DNA of 64,000 nucleotides, taken from contig JAIBAY010000002.1 in assembly GCA_019694975.1 (NCBI GenBank), positions 695,252 to 759,251 on the forward strand, written 5' to 3'. Below the pieces are notes generated by a model. It was not told where the DNA came from, made no database searches, and saw nothing but the letters and a program-made list of their open reading frames with translations. Source of the DNA: Chitinophagales bacterium. GTDB taxonomy: Bacteria > Bacteroidota > Bacteroidia > Chitinophagales > UBA10324. Shown piece after piece: positions 4,149 to 46,407 of the stretch. The position numbers were made by a program, and so were the translations under genes. The first letter of the stretch is position 1. Every line of letters starts with the position of its first letter.

Positions 4149-7100
4149 TTGAACACCTTTTTACTTCATAAGTGCCGGGCAGTTTTTGCCCCATTAATTC
4201 AACTGCGGTTTCAGCAGTTGCGTATTTGCATCGTTTTCGGTGGTATATTGCTGAGCGGGTCATTATTTGCTCAACAGACTGATCAGGTGATGCTGATGGC
4301 ATACAACCTGCTGGATTATCCGGATGCGGCCAACACCGAGGCAGACACGGCTTTGCGCAATCCAAGTTTCAGAACCATCATCGGAGCCGTTCAGCCGGAT
4401 CTGCTCGTAGTTACTGAATTGAATTCGTTATCAGGTATGAACGGATTCCTGACCCATGTGATGAATGCTTCGACAACTTCTTATAGCGCCGCACCATTTA
4501 TTGACGGGCCTGATTCTGATAACGGGTTGTATTACAGATCTTCTAAATTCATTTTCATCAGTCATAAAAAAATCAAGACTGATTTGCGCAACATCAGTGA
4601 ATTCAAGCTGCTGCATATTAACTCCGGAGATACCATCAGGGTGTATGCCTTGCACCTGAAGGCCAGCTCCGGAACTGCCAATGAATTACAAAGGGCGATG
4701 GAGGTAGATAGCTTACGGAAGGAGACCAATGCGCTTCCGGCAGGAACAGATTTCATTGTTTGCGGCGATTTTAATTTTTATAGTGAATCAGAAAGCGGCT
4801 ATCAGAAACTTTTGCAGATCACAGGCGGCAATGAAGGACATTGTGTTGATCCGATCAGCCTGTCAGGATCGTGGAACAACATCGCGTATGCAATACATCA
4901 TACACAATCGACCCGTATAAGAGCATTTGGAGGCGGTTCGACAGGCGGAATGGACGACCGTTTTGACCTTGTGCTGTATTCGAAAGCCATCAGTCAAAGC
5001 GGAGGAGTAACTTTCGTTCCCAACTCACAGATCGCATTCGGCAATGATGGCAATCATTACAATGATTCGATCAACAGGATGCCCAATAATGCAGTGGCGC
5101 AGTATGTAGCTGACGCATTGCATAATGCTTCGGACCATATACCGGTCTTATCCCAATTTTCAATTCAATATGGTGCAAGCGCTCCGCCGGATGCCGGAGT
5201 TGTATCGCTTGTTACGCCCGGTGCAGCCATTTGCTCTGCAACTAATCAGACACTTCAGGTACAGGTGAAAAACTTCGCTGCAGACAGCCTGAATTTTGCG
5301 GTGCATAATCTGCAGGTGGTACTACAAGTGACAGATCCTGTTTCCGGCATACATAATTTTTCAGCAACCATCAGCAGCGGCTCGCTGCAAGGCAACACCG
5401 TCATGGTCATAACATTTGACAGCACACTTACGATGCTCAACGCTGGAAACTATGTTTTCAATGCTTATACCGTTTTGAATGGTGACGGCAATGCTGACAA
5501 TAATGCCATGGCCGCCACCAGTGTAATGGTGTATTCCACACCCACGGTTTCCATAACACCACAAAGTCCTGTTTCTTTATGCAGTGGTTCTTCTGTAACG
5601 CTTACTGCCGGCAACAGTCAAAGTTATTTGTGGTCTACCGGAGCAACTACACAGTCAATTTTAGTATCAACCGCCGGAGAATACGCAGTTACCATCACCG
5701 CGACCACAGGATGTTCAGCCACCTCAGCGCCCGTAACGGTGAACATGGTGAGCCAGGGAGGCGGAACTGTATTCGCGGAAACAATGGGCAGCGTGCCGGC
5801 TACCACAGCTATCAGTTTGCATGAAGCTAACAATGGATTCGACAATGACTTATTCACTATGACAGGCAGTGCTGATGTGCGGAACACGCAGAGCTCGCTC
5901 GGCCTGTATGCAAATGCCTCCGGAGGAGCCAATGTATTTATTACCAATTCACCGGGAAGAGATTTTATGATATCAGGCATTAATACATCCAATTATATCA
6001 ATCCTGCATTGTCCTTCGCCATTTTTAAAAGTACCATTGCATCCACCGCCAGTGACCTGTCAGTACAAGTCAGCAGTGATGGCATCAATTACTATAGCCT
6101 TTCCTTTCCACCTTTACCATCAGGTTCGGGCACAGCAAACTGGTATTATCGAACGGCAACCGGAACGATTCCTGCTGTTTCCAATCTCAGGATCCGGTTT
6201 CTGCAAAATGGTAACATTACACAATACAGGATTGACGACATACTGTTGTCACATGCAGGTGAGGTACCGGCCATCACGGCAAGCGGACCTCTCACAGTGT
6301 GCACCGGAGAACATGTGGTGCTTAGCATCGGTGCCGTTGCAGGTGCCGGTTATCAATGGAAAAAAGACGGCGTAGTGATTCAGGGCGCCACATCACTGCA
6401 ATTCGAAGCATCCGCAACCGGTGCATATTCCTGTGATGCGATCAATGCATGTGGCACTTACAGTTCGAATGTAATCAGCGTGGTGGTGAACAACTGCCAG
6501 GCAATTTTACAGTTGAAGCTTTTTATTGAGGGTTACTATGCGGCAGATGGCCTGATGAAACCGGTACTTTTAAATCAGGGCGTTGATCAGGATCCATTTT
6601 CTGATGCTGTTGACACGATAATGGTTGAATTACATGATGCACAAAGCCCGGAGATGATTATCACTTCCGTAAAAAGCATCCTGCACACGAATGGAACTGT
6701 ATACTGTACCCTATCTTCTTCCGTCATCGGCGTTTCTGCATACATCGCGATTCATCAAAGGAATGCACTGGAAACCTGGAGTTCAGTGCCTTTGCTGATG
6801 ACTGATTCCAATGTATATGATTTCACAACAGGAATTACGCAGGCATTTCCTGATAACGTGAACCCAAATCCACAAATGATTTTTCTGCCCGATGCCGGCC
6901 TATGGGCATTTTACAGTGGTGATGTTAACCAGGATGGACAAATTGCGGGAGATGATTTTAACCTGGTTGAGGTGAATGTCACCGACCAGGCTTTCGGCTA
7001 TTTTTCAACTGATCTGACCGGCGAAGGCGCTTCTGACGGATCTGATTTCAATCTGCTGGAAGTGAATGCCAGCTATGGATTGTTCGCTGCACATCCCTGA
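4149..7100 (+). CDS. Secreted endonuclease/exonuclease/phosphatase-fold protein with Ig-like and dockerin-like C-terminus
   Basis: This is about 983 residues. A signal peptide (around RICIVFGGILLSGSLFAQ) is followed by a complete EEP domain of roughly 290 residues. Its residues appear intact: NLLDY, VTELN (Glu), HLKAS (His), GDFNF (Asp/Asn), DDRFDLVL and the final SDHIP. A CARDB-like segment, an Ig/PKD-like segment, a galactose-binding-like region and a second Ig-like segment follow. The end carries two Ca-binding-type repeats (GDVNQDGQIAGDDFN and DLTGEGASDGSDFN) like dockerin EF-hands. It probably acts outside the cell on nucleic acid or phosphoesters. There is no ATG before the signal peptide, so TTG at 4149 or TTG at 4218 must start it. 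No canonical T9SS type A sorting domain is visible. Confidence 0.8.
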   Translation: MNTFLLHKCRAVFAPLIQLRFQQLRICIVFGGILLSGSLFAQQTDQVMLMAYNLLDYPDAANTEADTALRNPSFRTIIGAVQPDLLVVTELNSLSGMNGFLTHVMNASTTSYSAAPFIDGPDSDNGLYYRSSKFIFISHKKIKTDLRNISEFKLLHINSGDTIRVYALHLKASSGTANELQRAMEVDSLRKETNALPAGTDFIVCGDFNFYSESESGYQKLLQITGGNEGHCVDPISLSGSWNNIAYAIHHTQSTRIRAFGGGSTGGMDDRFDLVLYSKAISQSGGVTFVPNSQIAFGNDGNHYNDSINRMPNNAVAQYVADALHNASDHIPVLSQFSIQYGASAPPDAGVVSLVTPGAAICSATNQTLQVQVKNFAADSLNFAVHNLQVVLQVTDPVSGIHNFSATISSGSLQGNTVMVITFDSTLTMLNAGNYVFNAYTVLNGDGNADNNAMAATSVMVYSTPTVSITPQSPVSLCSGSSVTLTAGNSQSYLWSTGATTQSILVSTAGEYAVTITATTGCSATSAPVTVNMVSQGGGTVFAETMGSVPATTAISLHEANNGFDNDLFTMTGSADVRNTQSSLGLYANASGGANVFITNSPGRDFMISGINTSNYINPALSFAIFKSTIASTASDLSVQVSSDGINYYSLSFPPLPSGSGTANWYYRTATGTIPAVSNLRIRFLQNGNITQYRIDDILLSHAGEVPAITASGPLTVCTGEHVVLSIGAVAGAGYQWKKDGVVIQGATSLQFEASATGAYSCDAINACGTYSSNVISVVVNNCQAILQLKLFIEGYYAADGLMKPVLLNQGVDQDPFSDAVDTIMVELHDAQSPEMIITSVKSILHTNGTVYCTLSSSVIGVSAYIAIHQRNALETWSSVPLLMTDSNVYDFTTGITQAFPDNVNPNPQMIFLPDAGLWAFYSGDVNQDGQIAGDDFNLVEVNVTDQAFGYFSTDLTGEGASDGSDFNLLEVNASYGLFAAHP

Positions 7101-11825: not shown

Positions 11826-12494
11826 TCAGATCCTGCCAGGATATTGATATGGATGATGCGGAGTGTGATATCTTAAAGGCGTAGTGAGTTCATATTTGCC
11901 ATTCTCCCGTTTTTCCATCACAAAATATTCGCAGTTATGTGGATTGGCGACGGTCTCAAATTTTTCTACGGTCCAGCGATACCAACGCATCAGGAATACC
12001 CGAATGGTCATTCCATGGGTAACAATAACAACGTTGGGAGGAAAAGTCGCCTTTTCAAAATCACGGAACAATGTGTCAAAGAATCCGCTGACACGGTCAT
12101 AAACATCAGCACAAGACTCACCATCGGCAATCCGGTAATAAAATGTTCCGAAAGCATCTCGTTCATCATCGAGCATCCTTTTTTTATCCGCCGTGCGGAG
12201 ATGTCCCCATTCCTGTTCCCTGATACGTGGCTCTTCCCTGATTAATATGCTGTTGCCGTCAAAGCTGTGCAAGATACCTTCACAGGTCATGCGGGTTCGC
12301 CAGTGAGGAGAAACATAAAACATGACCGGCTCTTTGCCGATGATGGATGAAAGTTTTCTGCCTGCTTCTACAGATTGACTCACACCTTTCTCACTGAGCT
12401 CAAGTGCATAGTCGGGACGCTCAGCATAAATCGTGCGGTCCACATTGCCTCTTGATTCGCCATGCCTGATCAGTACAATTCTATGTGGTTTCAT
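11826..12494 (-). CDS. Histidine phosphatase family protein (phosphoglycerate mutase-like)
   Basis: This is a 222-residue cytoplasmic phosphatase of the histidine phosphatase superfamily. It shows the catalytic RHGES (R10, H11) and the second His in VTHGMTIR near residue 160. REQEWGH around 93-99 gives the usual acidic region. The substrate cannot be read from sequence; close relatives include phosphohistidine and sugar-phosphate phosphatases. Length is normal. It stands alone, with the Nudix gene upstream on the same strand across a gap that holds no recognisable gene. Confidence 0.85.
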   Translation of the reverse strand: MKPHRIVLIRHGESRGNVDRTIYAERPDYALELSEKGVSQSVEAGRKLSSIIGKEPVMFYVSPHWRTRMTCEGILHSFDGNSILIREEPRIREQEWGHLRTADKKRMLDDERDAFGTFYYRIADGESCADVYDRVSGFFDTLFRDFEKATFPPNVVIVTHGMTIRVFLMRWYRWTVEKFETVANPHNCEYFVMEKRENGKYELTTPLRYHTPHHPYQYPGRI

Positions 12495-33611: not shown

Positions 33612-33633
33612 CGCTTCTTAAAAATCAAACAGC

Positions 33634-34710
33634 ATGAAGAAGTATAACTTCTATTCCGGTCCGGCCATTTTGCCACCAACCGTTTTCGAGCAGGCATCCA
33701 AAGCCGTATTGGAACTCAATGATATCGGATTATCGCTCATTGAAATCTCGCACCGCAGCAAGGAGTTTACCGCTGTAGTGGACGAAGCACAGCAACTTGT
33801 ACGCGAACTCACCGGATTGGGTGAGGAATATAAAATACTGTTTTTACAGGGCGGTGCCACAATGCAGTTTTGCACTATTCCTTATAACATGCTCGATTCA
33901 AATGAAACGGCAGCATATATGGAGATCGGCTCCTGGTCTAAGAAGGCGATAAAAGAAGCAAAGCTCTTCGGCAATGTGAATGTGGTGGCTTCATCCGCTG
34001 ACAAAAATTATTCATACATACCAAAGCAGTACAGCATTCCAGCTGACTCAAAATATTTTCACATCACCACCAATGAAACGATACATGGCAGTCAGCTGAA
34101 AGACATTCCCGCCTCACCGGTATCGTTGATTGCAGACATGAGTTCCGATATTTTTTCACGGGTGCTGGATTGGAAAAAATTTGATATGATATATGCCGGT
34201 GCGCAAAAAAATCTCGGCACTTCCGGCGCAACACTGGTGATCATGAAGGAAAGCCTGCTGGGGAAAGTGCAGCGTGCCATTCCAACGATGCTGGATTACC
34301 GTTCGCATATCAAAGACAATTCACTCCACAACACACCCAGTACTTTCGCAATTTATGTCTGCATGCTCACGCTTCGCTGGCTGAAGGAACAAGGCGGCAT
34401 TACCGCGATGGAAAAACGTAACCGCGCGAAAGCTGCGTTACTGTATGCGGAAATTGACCGCAATGCTTTGTTTGAAGGAAATGTAGCCGTCGAAGACCGT
34501 TCACTGATGAATGTGACCTGGATCATGCAGGATAAATCGCTGGAAGAGGCCTTCGGAGAATTTGCGAAAAACAATGGTTGCATCGGCATCAAGGGCCACC
34601 GTTCCGTGGGCGGCTTCAGGGCTTCCATTTATAATGCCATGCCGGAGGAAGGTGTTGCAAAACTCATCAGTGTGATGCAGGAATTCGAATCAACCCACAT
34701 GAAGAAATAG
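33634..34710 (+). CDS. serC: Phosphoserine aminotransferase
   Basis: This is a 358-residue PLP enzyme converting 3-phosphohydroxypyruvate and glutamate to phosphoserine and 2-oxoglutarate. NFYSGPAILP at the start, GGATMQF (phosphate cup), ADMSSDIFSR and YAGAQKNLG (K192 is the PLP lysine) are all in family positions. KGHRSVGGFRASIYNAMP closes the substrate pocket. It is the first gene of a serine cluster with serA, interrupted by a Crp/Fnr gene 39 bp downstream. Confidence 0.96.
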   Translation: MKKYNFYSGPAILPPTVFEQASKAVLELNDIGLSLIEISHRSKEFTAVVDEAQQLVRELTGLGEEYKILFLQGGATMQFCTIPYNMLDSNETAAYMEIGSWSKKAIKEAKLFGNVNVVASSADKNYSYIPKQYSIPADSKYFHITTNETIHGSQLKDIPASPVSLIADMSSDIFSRVLDWKKFDMIYAGAQKNLGTSGATLVIMKESLLGKVQRAIPTMLDYRSHIKDNSLHNTPSTFAIYVCMLTLRWLKEQGGITAMEKRNRAKAALLYAEIDRNALFEGNVAVEDRSLMNVTWIMQDKSLEEAFGEFAKNNGCIGIKGHRSVGGFRASIYNAMPEEGVAKLISVMQEFESTHMKK

Positions 34711-34749
34711 TCCACCTTACAGGATCAACTTTTCAATTGCTCAGTATAA

Positions 34750-35472
34750 ATGCGTCCACATCCAACCTGTATCAATTGCAGTTCAGCTGCATGTTTTGTG
34801 AATCGGTTTGTTGGCAAAGAAAACAAAGAGCAGCTGGCGCTTCATAAAACCGTACAGCATTTTAAGCCCGGCGCTGTTGTATTTAAAGAAGGTGACCCCG
34901 TAACAGGTATTTATTTTATTTTCAGCGGAAAGGTAAAGGTCTTCAATACAGGTCCAGACAACCGTTCACAAATCGTCAGACTGGCCGACAGCGGAAATAT
35001 CCTCGGCCACCGCGGACTGGGTTTGCCGCAGCTTTATCCGATCAGTGCTGCCACACTCGAAGATTCCACCATCTGCTTTATCAAGATGAATGATTTTCTG
35101 GCGGCACTGGAAAAGAGCCCTGCCTTTGCCATCAACCTGCTGATGTTTTATGCTGCTGAGCTAAGGCGGACCGAATACAAACTGCGCTCACTTTCTCAGA
35201 TGACAGTACGGCAGAAATTAGCCGATGCCGTGCTCACGGTACGCGAAATTTATGGCACTCAGATACGGAACAGGAAAAAAGTGCTTGCAGCAAAACTTTC
35301 CCGGCAGGATTATGCCGATATCATCGGTGCATCAATTGAAGAAGTGATTCGTACTTTTTCACAGTTTAAGAAAGAAGGCATCCTTCATTCCGAAGGAAAA
35401 TACATCGCCATACAAAAAGAAAAAGAACTGACTAAACTACTGAAAGGGTTCAGGGATATTCACCTTCCTTAA
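34750..35472 (+). CDS. Crp/Fnr-family regulator with an N-terminal cysteine cluster
   Basis: This is 240 residues. A cyclic-nucleotide-binding fold (about 25-145) leads to a winged-helix HTH (about 160-235, recognition region LSRQDYADIIGASIEEVIRT). The N-terminus has C7, C10 and C15, and a fourth Cys is at 109. This resembles the C20/C23/C29 plus C122 set of E. coli FNR, so an oxygen- or redox-sensing Fe-S cluster is possible. Cys-rich N-termini also occur in Bacteroidota relatives that have not been shown to bind clusters. It lies inside the serC-serA cluster, so it may control it. Confidence 0.87.
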   Translation: MRPHPTCINCSSAACFVNRFVGKENKEQLALHKTVQHFKPGAVVFKEGDPVTGIYFIFSGKVKVFNTGPDNRSQIVRLADSGNILGHRGLGLPQLYPISAATLEDSTICFIKMNDFLAALEKSPAFAINLLMFYAAELRRTEYKLRSLSQMTVRQKLADAVLTVREIYGTQIRNRKKVLAAKLSRQDYADIIGASIEEVIRTFSQFKKEGILHSEGKYIAIQKEKELTKLLKGFRDIHLP

Positions 35473-35559
35473 CCTTTTGTTCACACGGCGTTGGTATGTT
35501 TTCATGCTAAAACATAATCCATATACTATTTTCGTTGCCGGAGAAAAAAAATTATTAGT

Positions 35560-36516
35560 ATGATGAAGATTCTTGCCAACGATGGCATGGAAGCCTCAGC
35601 AAAGGCAGCACTGGAACAAGCCGGATTCGAAGTGCATGATGTTAAAATACCGCAGGATGAACTTGCAAACCATATCAATGAATTTGATGTGCTCACCGTT
35701 CGCAGTGCCACCAAGGTCAGGAAGCCGTTGATTGATGTCATCAGCCGCACCAAACTCATTATTCGCGGCGGCGTGGGCCTGGATAACATCGACGTGGAAT
35801 ATGCTCAGTCGAAAGACATCATGGTAAGGAATACACCACTGGCATCTTCGCAATCAGTGGCGGAACTGGTTTTTGCGCACTTATTCGGCCTGGTTCGTTT
35901 TCTTCCTGAATCAAACCGCGAGATGCCCGTAAACGGCACGCAGCAATTTAAAGCGCTGAAAGAAAAATTCTCAAAAGGCAGCGAACTGAAAGGAAAAACA
36001 CTGGGCTTCATTGGATTCGGTAATATTGGGCAGGCTACCGCGAAAATTGCCATTGGCTGTGGCATGCGGGTGATGGCATATGACCTGTTTCCACGCGACT
36101 GGAACCTTGAAATGCAACTCATGAATAGCATCCGTGTTTCAGTACCGGTTAAACCATCCACCAAAGAAGAGGTATTACGCAACAGCGACTTTATCACGAT
36201 TCACAGTGCCGGCGCAACGACGGTGATTTCGAAAGATGAATTTGTCATGATGAAAGACGGTGTGGGCATCATTAACTGTGCAAGAGGCGGAACAATAAAT
36301 GAAGCGGATCTGCTGCAGGCGCTGCATACAGGCAAGGTAGCCTTTGCAGGTATTGATGTGTTTGAAGAAGAACCGACGCATAATGTGGCATTGCTGCAAC
36401 ATCCGCGCGTGTCGTTGACCCCGCATATAGGAGCTTCCACCCGTGAAGCGCAGGATCGCATTGGCAAAGAAGTGGTAGATATAATTGTTAACTTTTCACA
36501 AAGCAAGCAGCCGTGA
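35560..36516 (+). CDS. serA: D-3-phosphoglycerate dehydrogenase, short form
   Basis: This is 318 residues. It carries the NAD Rossmann motif GFIGFGNIGQATA, the catalytic residues in the NCARGGTINE, E-containing VFEEEPT and HIGASTREAQ segments, and GGVGLDNID. It oxidises 3-phosphoglycerate to 3-phosphohydroxypyruvate, the first step of serine synthesis. It lacks the C-terminal ACT domain of longer SerA forms, so feedback by serine through that domain is unlikely. A small relative of hydroxypyruvate reductases is the alternative, but the serC context favours SerA. The following DUF1015 gene overlaps its stop by 4 bp. Confidence 0.9.
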   Translation: MMKILANDGMEASAKAALEQAGFEVHDVKIPQDELANHINEFDVLTVRSATKVRKPLIDVISRTKLIIRGGVGLDNIDVEYAQSKDIMVRNTPLASSQSVAELVFAHLFGLVRFLPESNREMPVNGTQQFKALKEKFSKGSELKGKTLGFIGFGNIGQATAKIAIGCGMRVMAYDLFPRDWNLEMQLMNSIRVSVPVKPSTKEEVLRNSDFITIHSAGATTVISKDEFVMMKDGVGIINCARGGTINEADLLQALHTGKVAFAGIDVFEEEPTHNVALLQHPRVSLTPHIGASTREAQDRIGKEVVDIIVNFSQSKQP

Positions 36517-37757
36517 TCATTAAAGCCTTTAAAGGTTTCAGGCCATTGCCGGAACTGGCTTCTAAAGTGGCATTGAATCCCAATAACCTCCTGAGTGATC
36601 AGCGCAGGAAAGAGGAAGCGCGTAAAAACCCCTACTCCTTTGCACATGTGGTGAAGCCGCGCTTAAATTTTCCGGATGACACACCGAAAACGGAACAGCA
36701 ACTCTTTGATTTTGCGCGCATGTATTTTCAAAAGATGGTGGATGAAGGCACCATTCTGCGGGATGAGGAACCCTGCCTGTATGTTTACCGGCTTTCGCTT
36801 GAAGGTCATACACAAACCGGACTCATCAGCTGCCTGCATATCAGGGATTACCAGGAAGGAAGAATTAAGAAACATGAACATACCCGCGCCGACAAGGAAA
36901 ATGAAAATGTGCTTCATATCACGAGTACCTTACTGAATTCAAATCCTGTTTTTCTTGCCTATACGCCGGTAGATAAGATTGATATGCTGATCGCCATGAT
37001 CACCAATGAACACCTGCCGGCATATGATTTTGTAAATGAATATGGAGTAAGACAGGAAGTGTGGGTAGTCAGCAATGAGAAGACCATTGATGAGCTGACG
37101 GATCTTTTTAACAAGCATGTTCACTGCTCTTATATTGCTGATGGACATCATCGTGCAGCAGCGGCAGCCATCTACGCCGGTCAAATGGCAGACAAGCTGA
37201 ATCAGCTGAAATCGAATGATTTCAATTACCTCCTCACCTGCCTGTTTCCGGCCAACCAACTGCGTATCTATGATTACAACCGCCTGATCAAAAACCTGAA
37301 TGGTCATACAGAGAAAGAGTTCCTGAAACTGGTGAGTGAAAAATTTGATGTTAAAATTGCCAGCCGCTCACCCTATGATCCTTCGCAGCCACACCGCTTC
37401 GGCATGTACCTGAATTACAAATGGTATAAGCTGCGGGCACGGGAAGGCACCTATACGAATGATGCCGTGGCGTCGCTTGATGTTTCCATACTGCAAAACA
37501 ATTTGCTTGATCCGGTTTTAGGAATCAAAGACCCGCGCATCGACCGCCGTATTGATTTTGTTCCGGGTATTAAAGGACTTGCCGCATTGGAAAAAGCGGT
37601 GGTGAAAGGAAAAGCCGCTGTAGCATTTTCGCTCTTTCCGGTTACCATGGAACAGCTTTTTGCCATCTCAGACATGAATGAAGTGATGCCGCCAAAATCA
37701 ACATGGTTTGAACCGAAACTCATGAGCGGGCTTATTGTTTTTAAGATGGAACTGTAA
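36513..37757 (+). CDS. DUF1015 protein with a DGHHR motif
   Basis: This is 414 residues, GTG start overlapping the serA stop (GTGA), so translation is coupled. The family is conserved but uncharacterised to my knowledge. Motifs visible here are AFKGFRPL (5-12), HEHTRADKEN (121-130) and YIADGHHRAAA (207-217). DGHHR resembles the ParB/Srx-fold core of serine kinases such as SerK and SbnI. In this operon, which has no serB, it might process phosphoserine or serine, but that is inference. It is soluble and cytoplasmic by composition. Confidence 0.82.
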   Translation: MIIKAFKGFRPLPELASKVALNPNNLLSDQRRKEEARKNPYSFAHVVKPRLNFPDDTPKTEQQLFDFARMYFQKMVDEGTILRDEEPCLYVYRLSLEGHTQTGLISCLHIRDYQEGRIKKHEHTRADKENENVLHITSTLLNSNPVFLAYTPVDKIDMLIAMITNEHLPAYDFVNEYGVRQEVWVVSNEKTIDELTDLFNKHVHCSYIADGHHRAAAAAIYAGQMADKLNQLKSNDFNYLLTCLFPANQLRIYDYNRLIKNLNGHTEKEFLKLVSEKFDVKIASRSPYDPSQPHRFGMYLNYKWYKLRAREGTYTNDAVASLDVSILQNNLLDPVLGIKDPRIDRRIDFVPGIKGLAALEKAVVKGKAAVAFSLFPVTMEQLFAISDMNEVMPPKSTWFEPKLMSGLIVFKMEL

Positions 37758-37766
37758 ACCGGTCGT

Positions 37767-38093
37767 TTGAAATATCCATTCATCATCATAGTTAAAGGGT
37801 TGCATGTGCGTGGAATGGCATTATTTCCATTCCTGCTGTTTCGTAACCGCCAGCTTTCGGCGGATGCAGTCATGCTTAACCATGAGATGATACACCACCG
37901 ACAGCAGGTGGAGCTGTTAATCATTCCATTCTATGTGTTATACCTCATCAATTATCTATTCAACAGGTGGAGATACACGAATCACCATGACGCCTATCGC
38001 AACATCATTTTTGAACGGGAAGCGTATGCGAATGATCAGGACCTTCAGTATCTGCGCCAAAGAAGATGGTTTGCTTTCTGTCAATACCGATGA
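37767..38093 (+). CDS. Tiny HExxH membrane protein
   Basis: This is 108 residues starting at a TTG (37767), 9 bp after the DUF1015 stop, so probably in the operon. It has a hydrophobic stretch near 45-65. HEMIHHRQQ (about 39-47) is an HExxH zinc-site pattern with an extra His, and EREAYAND follows about 40 residues later with a possible third ligand. This short arrangement recurs in Bacteroidota as an unnamed family. No function is known to me. The start could also be the ATG at residue 17. Confidence 0.6.
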   Translation: MKYPFIIIVKGLHVRGMALFPFLLFRNRQLSADAVMLNHEMIHHRQQVELLIIPFYVLYLINYLFNRWRYTNHHDAYRNIIFEREAYANDQDLQYLRQRRWFAFCQYR

Positions 38094-38194: not shown

Positions 38195-39742
38195 ATGCCC
38201 ATCAGAATGGTTGAAGACGATAATCAGCAACGGCCTGATAACTATCCGGGTGGCGGCCGCCGCCCCGGCGGGAATAGCGGCGGTTTTTCCATACTGTCCC
38301 TGCTGCCAATGCTGCTCATGTTGTTCCGTAAGAATCCGAAAACGGGTATTGTGCTGCTTTTGATCGGCGGTGCGCTCTATTACTTTTCAGGCGGCGGTTT
38401 TTCATCTCCTTCCGCTGGGCAATTGCTTTCTACCGGCGCTGAATTTGATCCAGCCTTGTATGATGCTACGGAAGTATTTGAACCATTGGCCGATAACATA
38501 AAGAACCCGTTACCGGAAAGAGTTTCGCTGGAGAAATATTGTCCTAAACGACTGAACCAGGGCGAACAGGGTTCATGCGTTGGCTGGGGCAATGCCTATG
38601 CAGCCCGCACCATCCTGGAGGCACAACGCACCGGGCAAGATCCCGACAGAATCGCCTTCAGCCCTGCCTACCTGTATAACCAGATCTCCCTGGAAGGATG
38701 CCAGGGTTCTTACATTGAAAAAGCCATGGATGTAATGCAGGGACAAGGCTTGCTTCCCCTATCGCAGTTTCCCTACAACGAACAAAGTTGCGAAACCAAA
38801 CCGACCTCTGCACAAAAACAGGCGGCCTCGCAATTTAAGATGACCGGTTACAACCGGCTTACCAAAAGCGGTGATAACCAGGAAGTGGATATGCTTGCCA
38901 TCAAACAAAACCTTGCACAAGGTGCGCCTGTAGTGGTCGGCATGATGGTCGGCGGAAGTTTCATGCAACCCATGATGGGCCAGGAAGTGTGGGTGCCTTC
39001 TTCCAATGATTATAACATGATGAATTTCGGCGGGCATTGTATGTGCGTGGTGGGTTATGATGATTACAAATACGGTAAGGAAGGCGCCTTTCAGTTGATG
39101 AACAGCTGGGGCAACGACTGGGGACAAAATGGATTGGCCTGGATACGATATAAAGACTTCGCCTATTTCACCAAAGAAGCCTATGGTGTTTATCCTATGG
39201 GTAATGCCGATAAACCACTTACCAATAATCTGTCGGTGGAATTCGGCCTCGTGGATAATGCGACGCAGCAGCAAATTCCATTACGCAACAAAGGAGGTAT
39301 AGTTTTTAACACTGCTGCACCCATTGCAAAAGGCACAAAATTCAAGATCGAGGTTACCAATTCACTCGACTGCTATACCTATCTCTTTGGCCAGGAAACA
39401 GATCAGAGCAGTTATGTATTGTTCCCTTACACGGCAAAACATTCACCCTACTGTGGCATCACCGGGACGCGATTGTTTCCCAAGGACTATTCTTTGCAGG
39501 TTGATGCAACAGGCGCCAAGGATTTCATGGCCATTGTGGTAACAAAAAAGCCGATAGATTATAAGGAACTGAATACGGCTATCAGCAGTCAAACAGGCAG
39601 CTATGAGGAAAAAGTGCGTAAAGCGCTGGGCAATTTGCTGATTCCATCAGTGAGTTTTAAGACAGGAGAGACCATCAGTTTCACACTGAACAATGTGGCA
39701 GACGGTGCGGTGGCGATGGTTATTGAAGTGGATAAGAGGTGA
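38195..39742 (+). CDS. Papain-like (C1) cysteine peptidase, membrane anchored
   Basis: This is 515 residues. The N-terminus is Gly/Arg/Pro rich (about 10-30), then two short hydrophobic stretches (about 31-44 and 50-64) anchor it. The C1 domain has Q122 and C128 (NQGEQGSCVGW), H281 (GGHCMCVVGYDD) and N303 (LMNSWGNDWG), a complete catalytic set. The last about 160 residues form a beta domain like the DUF4384 module found with Bacteroidota peptidases. There is no classical signal peptide. The stop lies at the edge of a heptanucleotide repeat. The substrate is unknown. Confidence 0.85.
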   Translation: MPIRMVEDDNQQRPDNYPGGGRRPGGNSGGFSILSLLPMLLMLFRKNPKTGIVLLLIGGALYYFSGGGFSSPSAGQLLSTGAEFDPALYDATEVFEPLADNIKNPLPERVSLEKYCPKRLNQGEQGSCVGWGNAYAARTILEAQRTGQDPDRIAFSPAYLYNQISLEGCQGSYIEKAMDVMQGQGLLPLSQFPYNEQSCETKPTSAQKQAASQFKMTGYNRLTKSGDNQEVDMLAIKQNLAQGAPVVVGMMVGGSFMQPMMGQEVWVPSSNDYNMMNFGGHCMCVVGYDDYKYGKEGAFQLMNSWGNDWGQNGLAWIRYKDFAYFTKEAYGVYPMGNADKPLTNNLSVEFGLVDNATQQQIPLRNKGGIVFNTAAPIAKGTKFKIEVTNSLDCYTYLFGQETDQSSYVLFPYTAKHSPYCGITGTRLFPKDYSLQVDATGAKDFMAIVVTKKPIDYKELNTAISSQTGSYEEKVRKALGNLLIPSVSFKTGETISFTLNNVADGAVAMVIEVDKR

Positions 39743-46258: not shown

Positions 46259-46407
46259 AATAATAAATAAAGGCTTGCAAACCTTAAGGGAATCTCCCCT
46301 TTCAAACCAACCCTTTAGTTGATGGTGCTGCAAAACTTAAAGGGTAACTTTTTTGGAATTGGACTGAATTCCTGTAGGTTTGCCGGAAATTTTTTTAAAA
46401 CACCCGG

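Follow-up and report, generated by a model that had tools for sequence, protein, structure and literature searches.

Organization of the operon

The window (the whole 64-kb stretch of DNA analysed here) contains five genes that run in one direction on the forward strand: serC, an FNR-like crp gene, serA, a DUF1015 gene, and a gene for a 108-residue protein with an HExxH motif (Table 1). The successive gaps are 39, 87, −4, and 9 bp, and this string of genes, first described from the sequence alone, was confirmed with exact coordinates. SerA consists of two 2-Hacid_dh domains only, and the phosphoglycerate dehydrogenase model TIGR01327 is matched over positions 1–302 of 525. The DUF1015 protein is a full-length member of its family, with 295.4 bits against PF06245 (gathering cut-off 25.8) over model positions 1–325 of 325. 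No Rfam elements were found in the window, and the Bacteroidota −33/−7 promoter pattern gave a single window match, at 46352, which is below chance expectation.

Table 1. Features of the serC–serA–DUF1015 operon, in window positions
Feature	Position	Strand	Evidence and remarks
serC, phosphoserine aminotransferase, 358 aa	33634..34710	+	PRK05355 478 bits (cut-off 253); TIGR01364 449 bits (cut-off 443.6)
crp/fnr-family regulator, 240 aa	34750..35472	+	Pfam PF00027, PF13545, PF00325; Cys 7, 10, 15, 109
serA, short phosphoglycerate dehydrogenase without regulatory domain, 318 aa	35560..36516	+	PF00389, PF02826
DUF1015 protein, predicted SerK/SbnI-like fold, 414 aa	36513..37757	+	GTG start; 4-bp overlap with serA; PF06245
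Codons of invariant H121-E122 of DUF1015	36873..36878	+	Invariant in alignment A2
Codons of invariant D210-G-H-H-R214 of DUF1015	37140..37154	+	Invariant in alignments A1 and A2
108-aa HExxH protein	37767..38093	+	TTG start; gap of 9 after DUF1015

The operon has no serB, as the sequence-only reading had pointed out, and the genome-wide search that it proposed returned no SerB above the TIGR00338 cut-off (144.15 bits) anywhere in the genome, which is 100% complete. The nearest matches are 133.1 bits in a GT2-HAD fusion (G000:C12) and 82.8 bits in a TIR-HAD fusion, and no HAD match was found in DUF1015 in Pfam and NCBIfam searches. The lack of a phosphoserine phosphatase is a recognized problem in amino acid reconstructions: SerA and SerC occur without any known type of SerB in 450 of 2856 gut genomes, from diverse Firmicutes (PMC9026213), and SerB gaps are listed by GapMind (PMC7311316). 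No serine-synthesis function is assigned to DUF1015, PF06245, or COG4198 in the portions consulted of PMC2211319, PMC12704722, and PMC11316588, a survey that covers open-access literature only and may miss earlier work.

Linkage of DUF1015 to serine genes and near-exclusion of SerB

At 55 of 80 named DUF1015 loci, serA and/or serC lies no more than 4 kb away on the same strand, and at 34 of the 80 both are present. These serine-linked loci span Bacteroidota, Clostridia, Gemmatimonadetes, Acidobacteria, and Anaerolineae, and the linkage is far beyond chance. It is retained even where a non-orthologous class V aminotransferase replaces SerC (L052, L064, L070, L096, and L103), and serC, NAD(P)-binding, and DUF1015 genes are neighbors in Porphyromonas (PMC11316588). 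The remaining 25 loci have no serA or serC nearby, in part as a result of short contigs. We define the serine-linked DUF1015 subfamily here by a score of >430 bits on profile A2 together with a serA/serC neighborhood; the window protein belongs to it, with adjacent serC and serA and 589 bits on A2, of which it is itself one of the 50 rows.

In the phylum sample, SerB is over the cut-off in none of 48 genomes with serine-linked DUF1015 compared with 38 of 70 others. This comparison covers SerB of the TIGR00338 type only, so that a phosphatase of another type could take its place, and it counts related genomes more than once (12 families with the serine-linked form, 5 with SerB). Canonical serC is present in 46 of those 48 genomes. 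None of the 41 genomes in the relatives sample has SerB either, and 29 of the 30 genomes reached through named loci lack it, the exception being Parabacteroides faecis (L105), which has both serine-linked DUF1015 and SerB. Serine-linked DUF1015 and SerB are thus nearly exclusive in their distribution. The earlier suggestion that the last step is performed by an unusual enzyme gains indirect support from the absence of SerB in this genome, in the relatives, and in the serine-linked genomes, and that enzyme is likely the operon's own DUF1015 protein, which the sequence-only reading listed and did not single out.

All 32 SerB genomes that lack canonical serC contain PF06245. This co-occurrence was considered as a contradiction and dropped, as profile A2 and the gene neighborhoods show that PF06245 is mixed. 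The DUF1015 proteins of these 32 genomes are divergent (<220 bits on A2, and 23–27% identical to the window protein in the cases read), and those inspected adjoin scpA, tsaE/tsaB, or maf type genes (named by eye) rather than serine genes. A third group has intermediate scores (about 300–395 bits) and comes chiefly from the other families of the class, both those with SerB and those without it.

Predicted fold and conserved residues of DUF1015

AlphaFold models of DUF1015 have pLDDT values of 95–96. For two such models, SerK, its Pyrococcus homologue, and SbnI account for all of the nine best PDB matches (Foldseek E values of 3e-8 and 9e-8), with best Z scores of 13.2 and 12.9 compared with 5.2 and 4.8 for the next family. 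SerK and SbnI, both free serine kinases, are the only confident matches; Foldseek and VIA-align matches outside SerK, SbnI, sulfiredoxin, and ParB were set aside as noise. Over residues about 96–414, DUF1015 is predicted to have the fold of SerK, an ADP-dependent free serine kinase (PMC5120207; Thermococcus kodakarensis TK0378, PDB 5x0b series; Foldseek E 3e-8, Z 13.2, rmsd 5.4 over 227 residues), from which it differs by about 95 extra N-terminal residues. The models likewise suggest a fold in common with SbnI (PDB 5uje and 6nr6; Z 11.8–12.2 over about 215 residues), although SbnI makes phosphoserine in a siderophore pathway (staphyloferrin B) and DUF1015 sits beside serA and serC. At the sequence level, phmmer and a DUF1015 profile search of PDB sequences gave no match to SerK or SbnI. 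DUF1015 is listed in a ParB-CTPase-fold survey (PMC12704722).

Two motifs of DUF1015 are invariant, H-E-x-T and D-G-H-H-R, and the latter is kept in the divergent subfamilies too. The invariant E122 lies in about the right place for SerK E30, as judged by alignment ranges and not by residue-level superposition, and could be the counterpart of this catalytic glutamate.

Proposed role of serine-linked DUF1015

We propose that serine-linked DUF1015 probably removes the phosphate from O-phosphoserine as a non-orthologous replacement of SerB. In the pathway envisioned here, SerA would oxidize 3-phosphoglycerate, SerC would yield O-phosphoserine, and DUF1015 would convert O-phosphoserine to L-serine by phosphate removal in place of SerB. 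The analysis shows the conserved linkage, the avoidance of SerB, the T-box leaders of Clostridial operons, and the predicted fold, whereas phosphoserine binding by DUF1015, the chemistry, and the direction are what we infer. The net reaction and pathway position would be those of HAD-type SerB (TIGR00338), whereas the fold is unrelated. Because of its SerK/SbnI-like fold, DUF1015 probably accommodates phosphoserine in the corresponding pocket, with H-E-x-T and D-G-H-H-R, and SerK and DUF1015 would have the same substrate pair, as the operon implies. The occurrence of DUF1015 in SerB-less genomes and, in some Clostridia, downstream of serine T-boxes implies a net direction opposite to that of SerK. 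Net hydrolysis is more likely than a reversal of the SerK reaction, since phosphoserine + AMP → serine + ADP would be energetically uphill.

In another reading, DUF1015 would be a serine kinase like SerK, serving serine/glycine assimilation or cysteine synthesis via phosphoserine, with another phosphatase making serine. The proteins that DUF1015 matches in fold are serine kinases, both SerK and SbnI produce phosphoserine, and serK of Desulfurococcales, like DUF1015, lies near serA and aminotransferase genes, an arrangement read as assimilation. Glycine riboswitches have been reported in front of COG4198 genes from Firmicutes metagenomes (PMC2211319), which would also fit serine assimilation, and P. 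faecis, with its SerB, is compatible with a kinase. However, no glycine riboswitch was found at ten Clostridial DUF1015 loci tested. Moreover, T-box leaders (97–137 bits, cut-off 93) precede the SerC–serA–DUF1015 operons of Clostridial loci L052, L070, and L096, and all three have the specifier UCC, which is predicted to specify serine in Clostridium acetobutylicum and C. tetani (PMC8002221). These serine-specifier leaders point to biosynthesis, and together with the near-exclusion of serine-linked DUF1015 and SerB they make the kinase reading unlikely.

We favor, with a probability of about 0.6, DUF1015 as a new and widespread class of phosphoserine phosphatase or phosphotransferase on a serine-kinase (ParB/sulfiredoxin) fold that makes up for the missing SerB in many Bacteroidota, Clostridia, and other phyla and that has been remodelled further in the window's family, where PYDV/E50/DR is lost and the operon is kept. 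If this is true, a DUF becomes an enzyme, predicted serine auxotrophies would be corrected, and a kinase fold would have been recruited for the opposite direction. With a single candidate family, a known fold, and a serine-responsive leader in some lineages, the question is directly testable.

Several observations are counted against the proposal: the known activity of the fold runs from serine to phosphoserine, P. faecis has both genes, 25 of the 80 loci are without serA or serC nearby, sequence searches do not connect DUF1015 to SerK, there is the riboswitch report for COG4198, and the window protein has lost conserved residues.

A variant DUF1015 in the window's family

The window DUF1015 lacks Y24, D25, V26, E31, E50, D131, and R132, residues that are kept by 77–79 of 80 homologues and are mostly N-terminal. 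The near-invariant PYDV (23–26), E50, and DR (131–132) read PNNL, R50, and EN in the window protein, which thus departs from the subfamily signature, and similar changes are seen in other family members. By sequence, the DUF1015 of this family is a monophyletic, clade-specific variant. Its activity may have changed with the loss of these residues; the variant would nonetheless serve the same step, given that in other family members it lies next to serA and no SerB-like protein is found.

The lost residues also count toward a reading in which the HAD domain of the GT2-HAD fusion G000:C12 performs the phosphatase step in this genome and the variant DUF1015 is accessory or has another role. With 133 bits on SerB, this HAD domain falls slightly short of the cut-off, and its best PDB match is the phosphoserine phosphatase of Methanocaldococcus jannaschii (E 3.5e-24). 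However, the domain to which it is joined resembles glucosyl-3-phosphoglycerate synthase, an arrangement that suggests a sugar-phosphoglycerate phosphatase. The fusion is absent from other family members, including 99–100% complete genomes with the same DUF1015 variant, and a similar match in G091 (120 bits, 471-aa frame) coexists with a canonical DUF1015. We consider this reading improbable, and the variant DUF1015 remains our candidate for the step.

The FNR-like regulator and other features of the window

The redox-type regulator noted earlier between the enzymes is indeed present. It is a Crp-family protein with cNMP_binding and HTH_Crp_2 domains and exactly four cysteines in an FNR-like arrangement, with Cys109 at the offset of FNR Cys122 (NF008365 match). 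The CRP fold and four candidate ligand cysteines are both present, as in FNR, consistent with a putative FNR-type regulator. The third cysteine spacing is x4 in the regulator, whereas it is x5 in Escherichia coli FNR.

It is very doubtful that this protein runs the operon as a serine regulon responsive to oxygen or redox state. The cysteine spacing and the position of the gene in line with serC and serA (gaps of 39 and 87 bp) are in keeping with such control, but the genus-mate L155 has serC–serA–DUF1015–HExxH without crp, and no crp adjoins serC or serA in the other family members or at the 80 named loci. Of the gene order whose conservation was at issue, serC–serA–DUF1015 is kept in relatives, whereas the crp insertion is a peculiarity of this one genome. 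With up to two mismatches, FNR boxes number 81 in 64 kb compared with 61 expected, including one at 33615, shortly before serC, and another at 34737, where crp starts. The scan is uninformative, since the matches near the operon are among these 81; FNR-like sites are no denser at the operon than in the rest of the window, and none of them is convincing. As a local insertion, the FNR-like gene may bring oxygen control to this genome alone; the proposed tie of serine synthesis to oxygen or redox state is weak and would at most be local to this genome. At 45% GC (GC3 0.45), crp differs little from the window as a whole (mean 46%), and its composition gives no sign of recent foreign origin.

A histidine-phosphatase-superfamily phosphoserine phosphatase (iPSP type) performing the step, with DUF1015 regulatory, is highly improbable: L007 (208 aa) matches Hydrogenobacter phosphoserine phosphatase 1 with 48 bits (E 1.4e-11) and L008 (in the window, near 11.9–12.5 kb) matches it weakly, but L007 scores better on a phosphoglycerate mutase (56.8 bits), other superfamily members score similarly, and neither gene is adjacent to serA or serC.

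The 108-residue HExxH protein matched no family in Pfam or NCBIfam, and it adjoins DUF1015 only in the window's family (L044, L145, L155, L159, L160, and L161).

An unusual enzyme for the last step of serine synthesis, as proposed from the sequence alone, has strong indirect support, and DUF1015 is the candidate: SerB is almost always absent where the serine-linked form is present, serine T-boxes precede some of its operons, and its modelled fold is shared with the free serine kinases SerK and SbnI. Its fold and gene neighbourhood were glimpsed earlier (PMC12704722, PMC11316588); none of the open-access papers searched was found to give DUF1015 the role of SerB.

Operon structure and conservation

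The layout in the sequence-only reading is exact, with serC, crp, serA, DUF1015 and the gene for a 108-residue HExxH protein all on the forward strand and separated by 39, 87, −4 and 9 bp. Pfam and NCBIfam matches identify SerC and the Crp/Fnr regulator and show SerA to be short (318 residues) and devoid of a regulatory domain; the DUF1015 protein is a full-length PF06245 member (Pfam), and the HExxH protein matched no family among the Pfam and NCBIfam models. The closest named relative of the window's DUF1015 is that of L044, a Chitinophagales MAG (51% identity). A papain-family (C1) protein with DUF4384 is encoded 101 bp beyond the HExxH gene, and L160 has the same neighbour (67% identity).

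The order serC-serA-DUF1015, often with the HExxH gene, is kept in the window's family (L155, L156, L161, L162, L164), and serine linkage is wide, but crp in the middle is peculiar to this genome. The genus-mate L155 lacks crp and has a serC-serA gap of about 250 bp, and no other relative examined has crp beside its serine genes, which marks crp as a local insertion. The encoded regulator, with four cysteines at positions 7, 10, 15 and 109, is consistent with an FNR-type oxygen sensor, and the suggested redox control would be at best local to the window's genome.

Among 80 named loci retrieved with the DUF1015 profile, serA and serC both adjoin DUF1015 (same strand, within 4 kb) in 34, serC alone in 17 and serA alone in 4. 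These linked loci include Bacteroidota, Clostridia, Gemmatimonadetes (L082), Acidobacteria (L097, L103) and Anaerolineae (L102), a general arrangement that persists where the aminotransferase is another class V enzyme, non-orthologous to SerC (L052, L064, L070, L096, L103).

Near-exclusion of SerB

The lack of serB extends beyond the operon. No protein of the 4.3-Mb genome, rated 100% complete, reaches the SerB cut-off (144.15 bits), nor does any from a sample of 41 genomes of relatives. Closest to passing, at 133.1 bits, is the HAD domain at the C-terminal end of a 459-residue protein, which has an N-terminal half similar to glucosyl-3-phosphoglycerate synthase. Because this HAD domain resembles Methanocaldococcus jannaschii phosphoserine phosphatase (E 3.5e-24), the fusion has to be taken seriously as a rival for the SerB step in this genome; it may be a bifunctional glucosylglycerate enzyme. 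It is, however, missing from the rest of the family, of which G121, G126 and G128, for example (99–100% complete), have no SerB match above about 21 bits. A similar match occurs in genome G091. The second-best match (82.8 bits) is a TIR-HAD fusion, possibly a defence protein, whose TIR portion reaches 130 bits, short of the cut-off, with the retron-TIR anti-phage model NF042941.

Coordinates of phosphatase-like genes and neighbouring features
Feature	Location	Strand	Remark
GT2-HAD fusion (L001)	784-2163, own genome contig C12		GT2 glucosyl-3-phosphoglycerate-synthase-like; HAD phosphoserine-phosphatase-like
TIR-HAD fusion (L002)	955-2154, own genome contig C1		TIR domain + HAD-IB (SerB-like) phosphatase
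Histidine-phosphatase-superfamily gene (L008)	window, about 11898-12479	-	weakly like iPSP phosphoserine phosphatase
Papain-family (C1)/DUF4384 protein	window, 38195-39742		
Tandem T-box leaders, apparent	L096, about 4269-4680		
Tandem T-box leaders, apparent	L052, about 4455-4760		

Of 118 genomes drawn evenly from the phylum, 105 carry PF06245, 67 canonical SerC and 38 SerB. Because PF06245 is heterogeneous, the sample was re-scored with a dedicated profile for the serine-linked form (>430 bits, plus one sequence cut by a contig end). Of the 48 genomes with this form, 46 carry canonical SerC; SerB is missing from all 48 but occurs in 38 of the 70 others. The Fisher p is 8e-12 but must, since the sampled genomes are related, be weighed with the count by family (serine-linked form in 12, SerB in 5, overlap 0). 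A SerB search of 30 genomes that contain named loci, many of them not from Bacteroidota, gave a single positive, Parabacteroides faecis. Inspected divergent DUF1015 forms of SerB-bearing genomes adjoin genes unrelated to serine.

Pathway direction and chemistry

A serine T-box turns genes on when serine-tRNA is uncharged, so such leaders fit biosynthesis and argue against a role in serine assimilation. T-box leaders above the Rfam threshold lie directly upstream of SerC-serA-DUF1015 at 3 of ten Clostridial loci, and all three carry UCC at the specifier position, which is also the predicted codon in the serine T-boxes of C. acetobutylicum and C. tetani (PMC8002221). The leaders of L096 and L052, upstream of the same genes, appear to be tandem, with a second T-box core motif after the first. 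No glycine riboswitch was seen at the ten loci, although PMC2211319 reports one ahead of COG4198 in Firmicutes fragments from metagenomes.

AlphaFold models of the window's DUF1015 and the canonical Lutispora protein (pLDDT 95.3 and 96.1) have confident structural matches only to SerK, its Pyrococcus homologue and SbnI, with sulfiredoxin (Z about 5) and ParB (Z 3–4) ranking far below. SerK converts serine and ADP to phosphoserine and AMP (PMC5120207). Alignments show two invariant DUF1015 motifs, H121-E122-x-T124 and D210-G-H-H-R214, and structural alignment ranges would place E122 close to where SerK E30 is expected. Because the phosphate ester of phosphoserine is low in energy, handing the phosphate back to AMP would run uphill, and simple hydrolysis, with a nucleotide perhaps assisting, would be the likelier chemistry for DUF1015.

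Family variant and divergent forms

A single clade (support 1.0) unites the window's DUF1015 with 12 other family sequences, of which two probably come from one genome. L044 and G121, whose match scores agree, are in all likelihood one genome. In this clade PYDV (23–26) becomes PN[NG][LM], E50 becomes R or K, and DR (131–132) becomes EN or AN, at positions where the usual residues persist in 77–79 of the 80 named homologues. The changes fall mostly in the N-terminal segment, which SerK and SbnI lack. This segment is dispensable in evolution, with the core motifs kept, because divergent relatives in other families (L167, L168, L169, L170) have lost it partly or wholly and two, L168 and L170, still adjoin serC. 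The genomes of these two also carry SerB-like HAD matches below threshold (66–70 bits).

PF06245 should probably be split. A divergent subfamily (L174-L185, L189-L192; about 22–29% identity to the window protein) occurs mostly in SerB-bearing genomes beside apparent scpA-, tsaE/tsaB- or maf-type genes, and retains HExT and ADGHHR.
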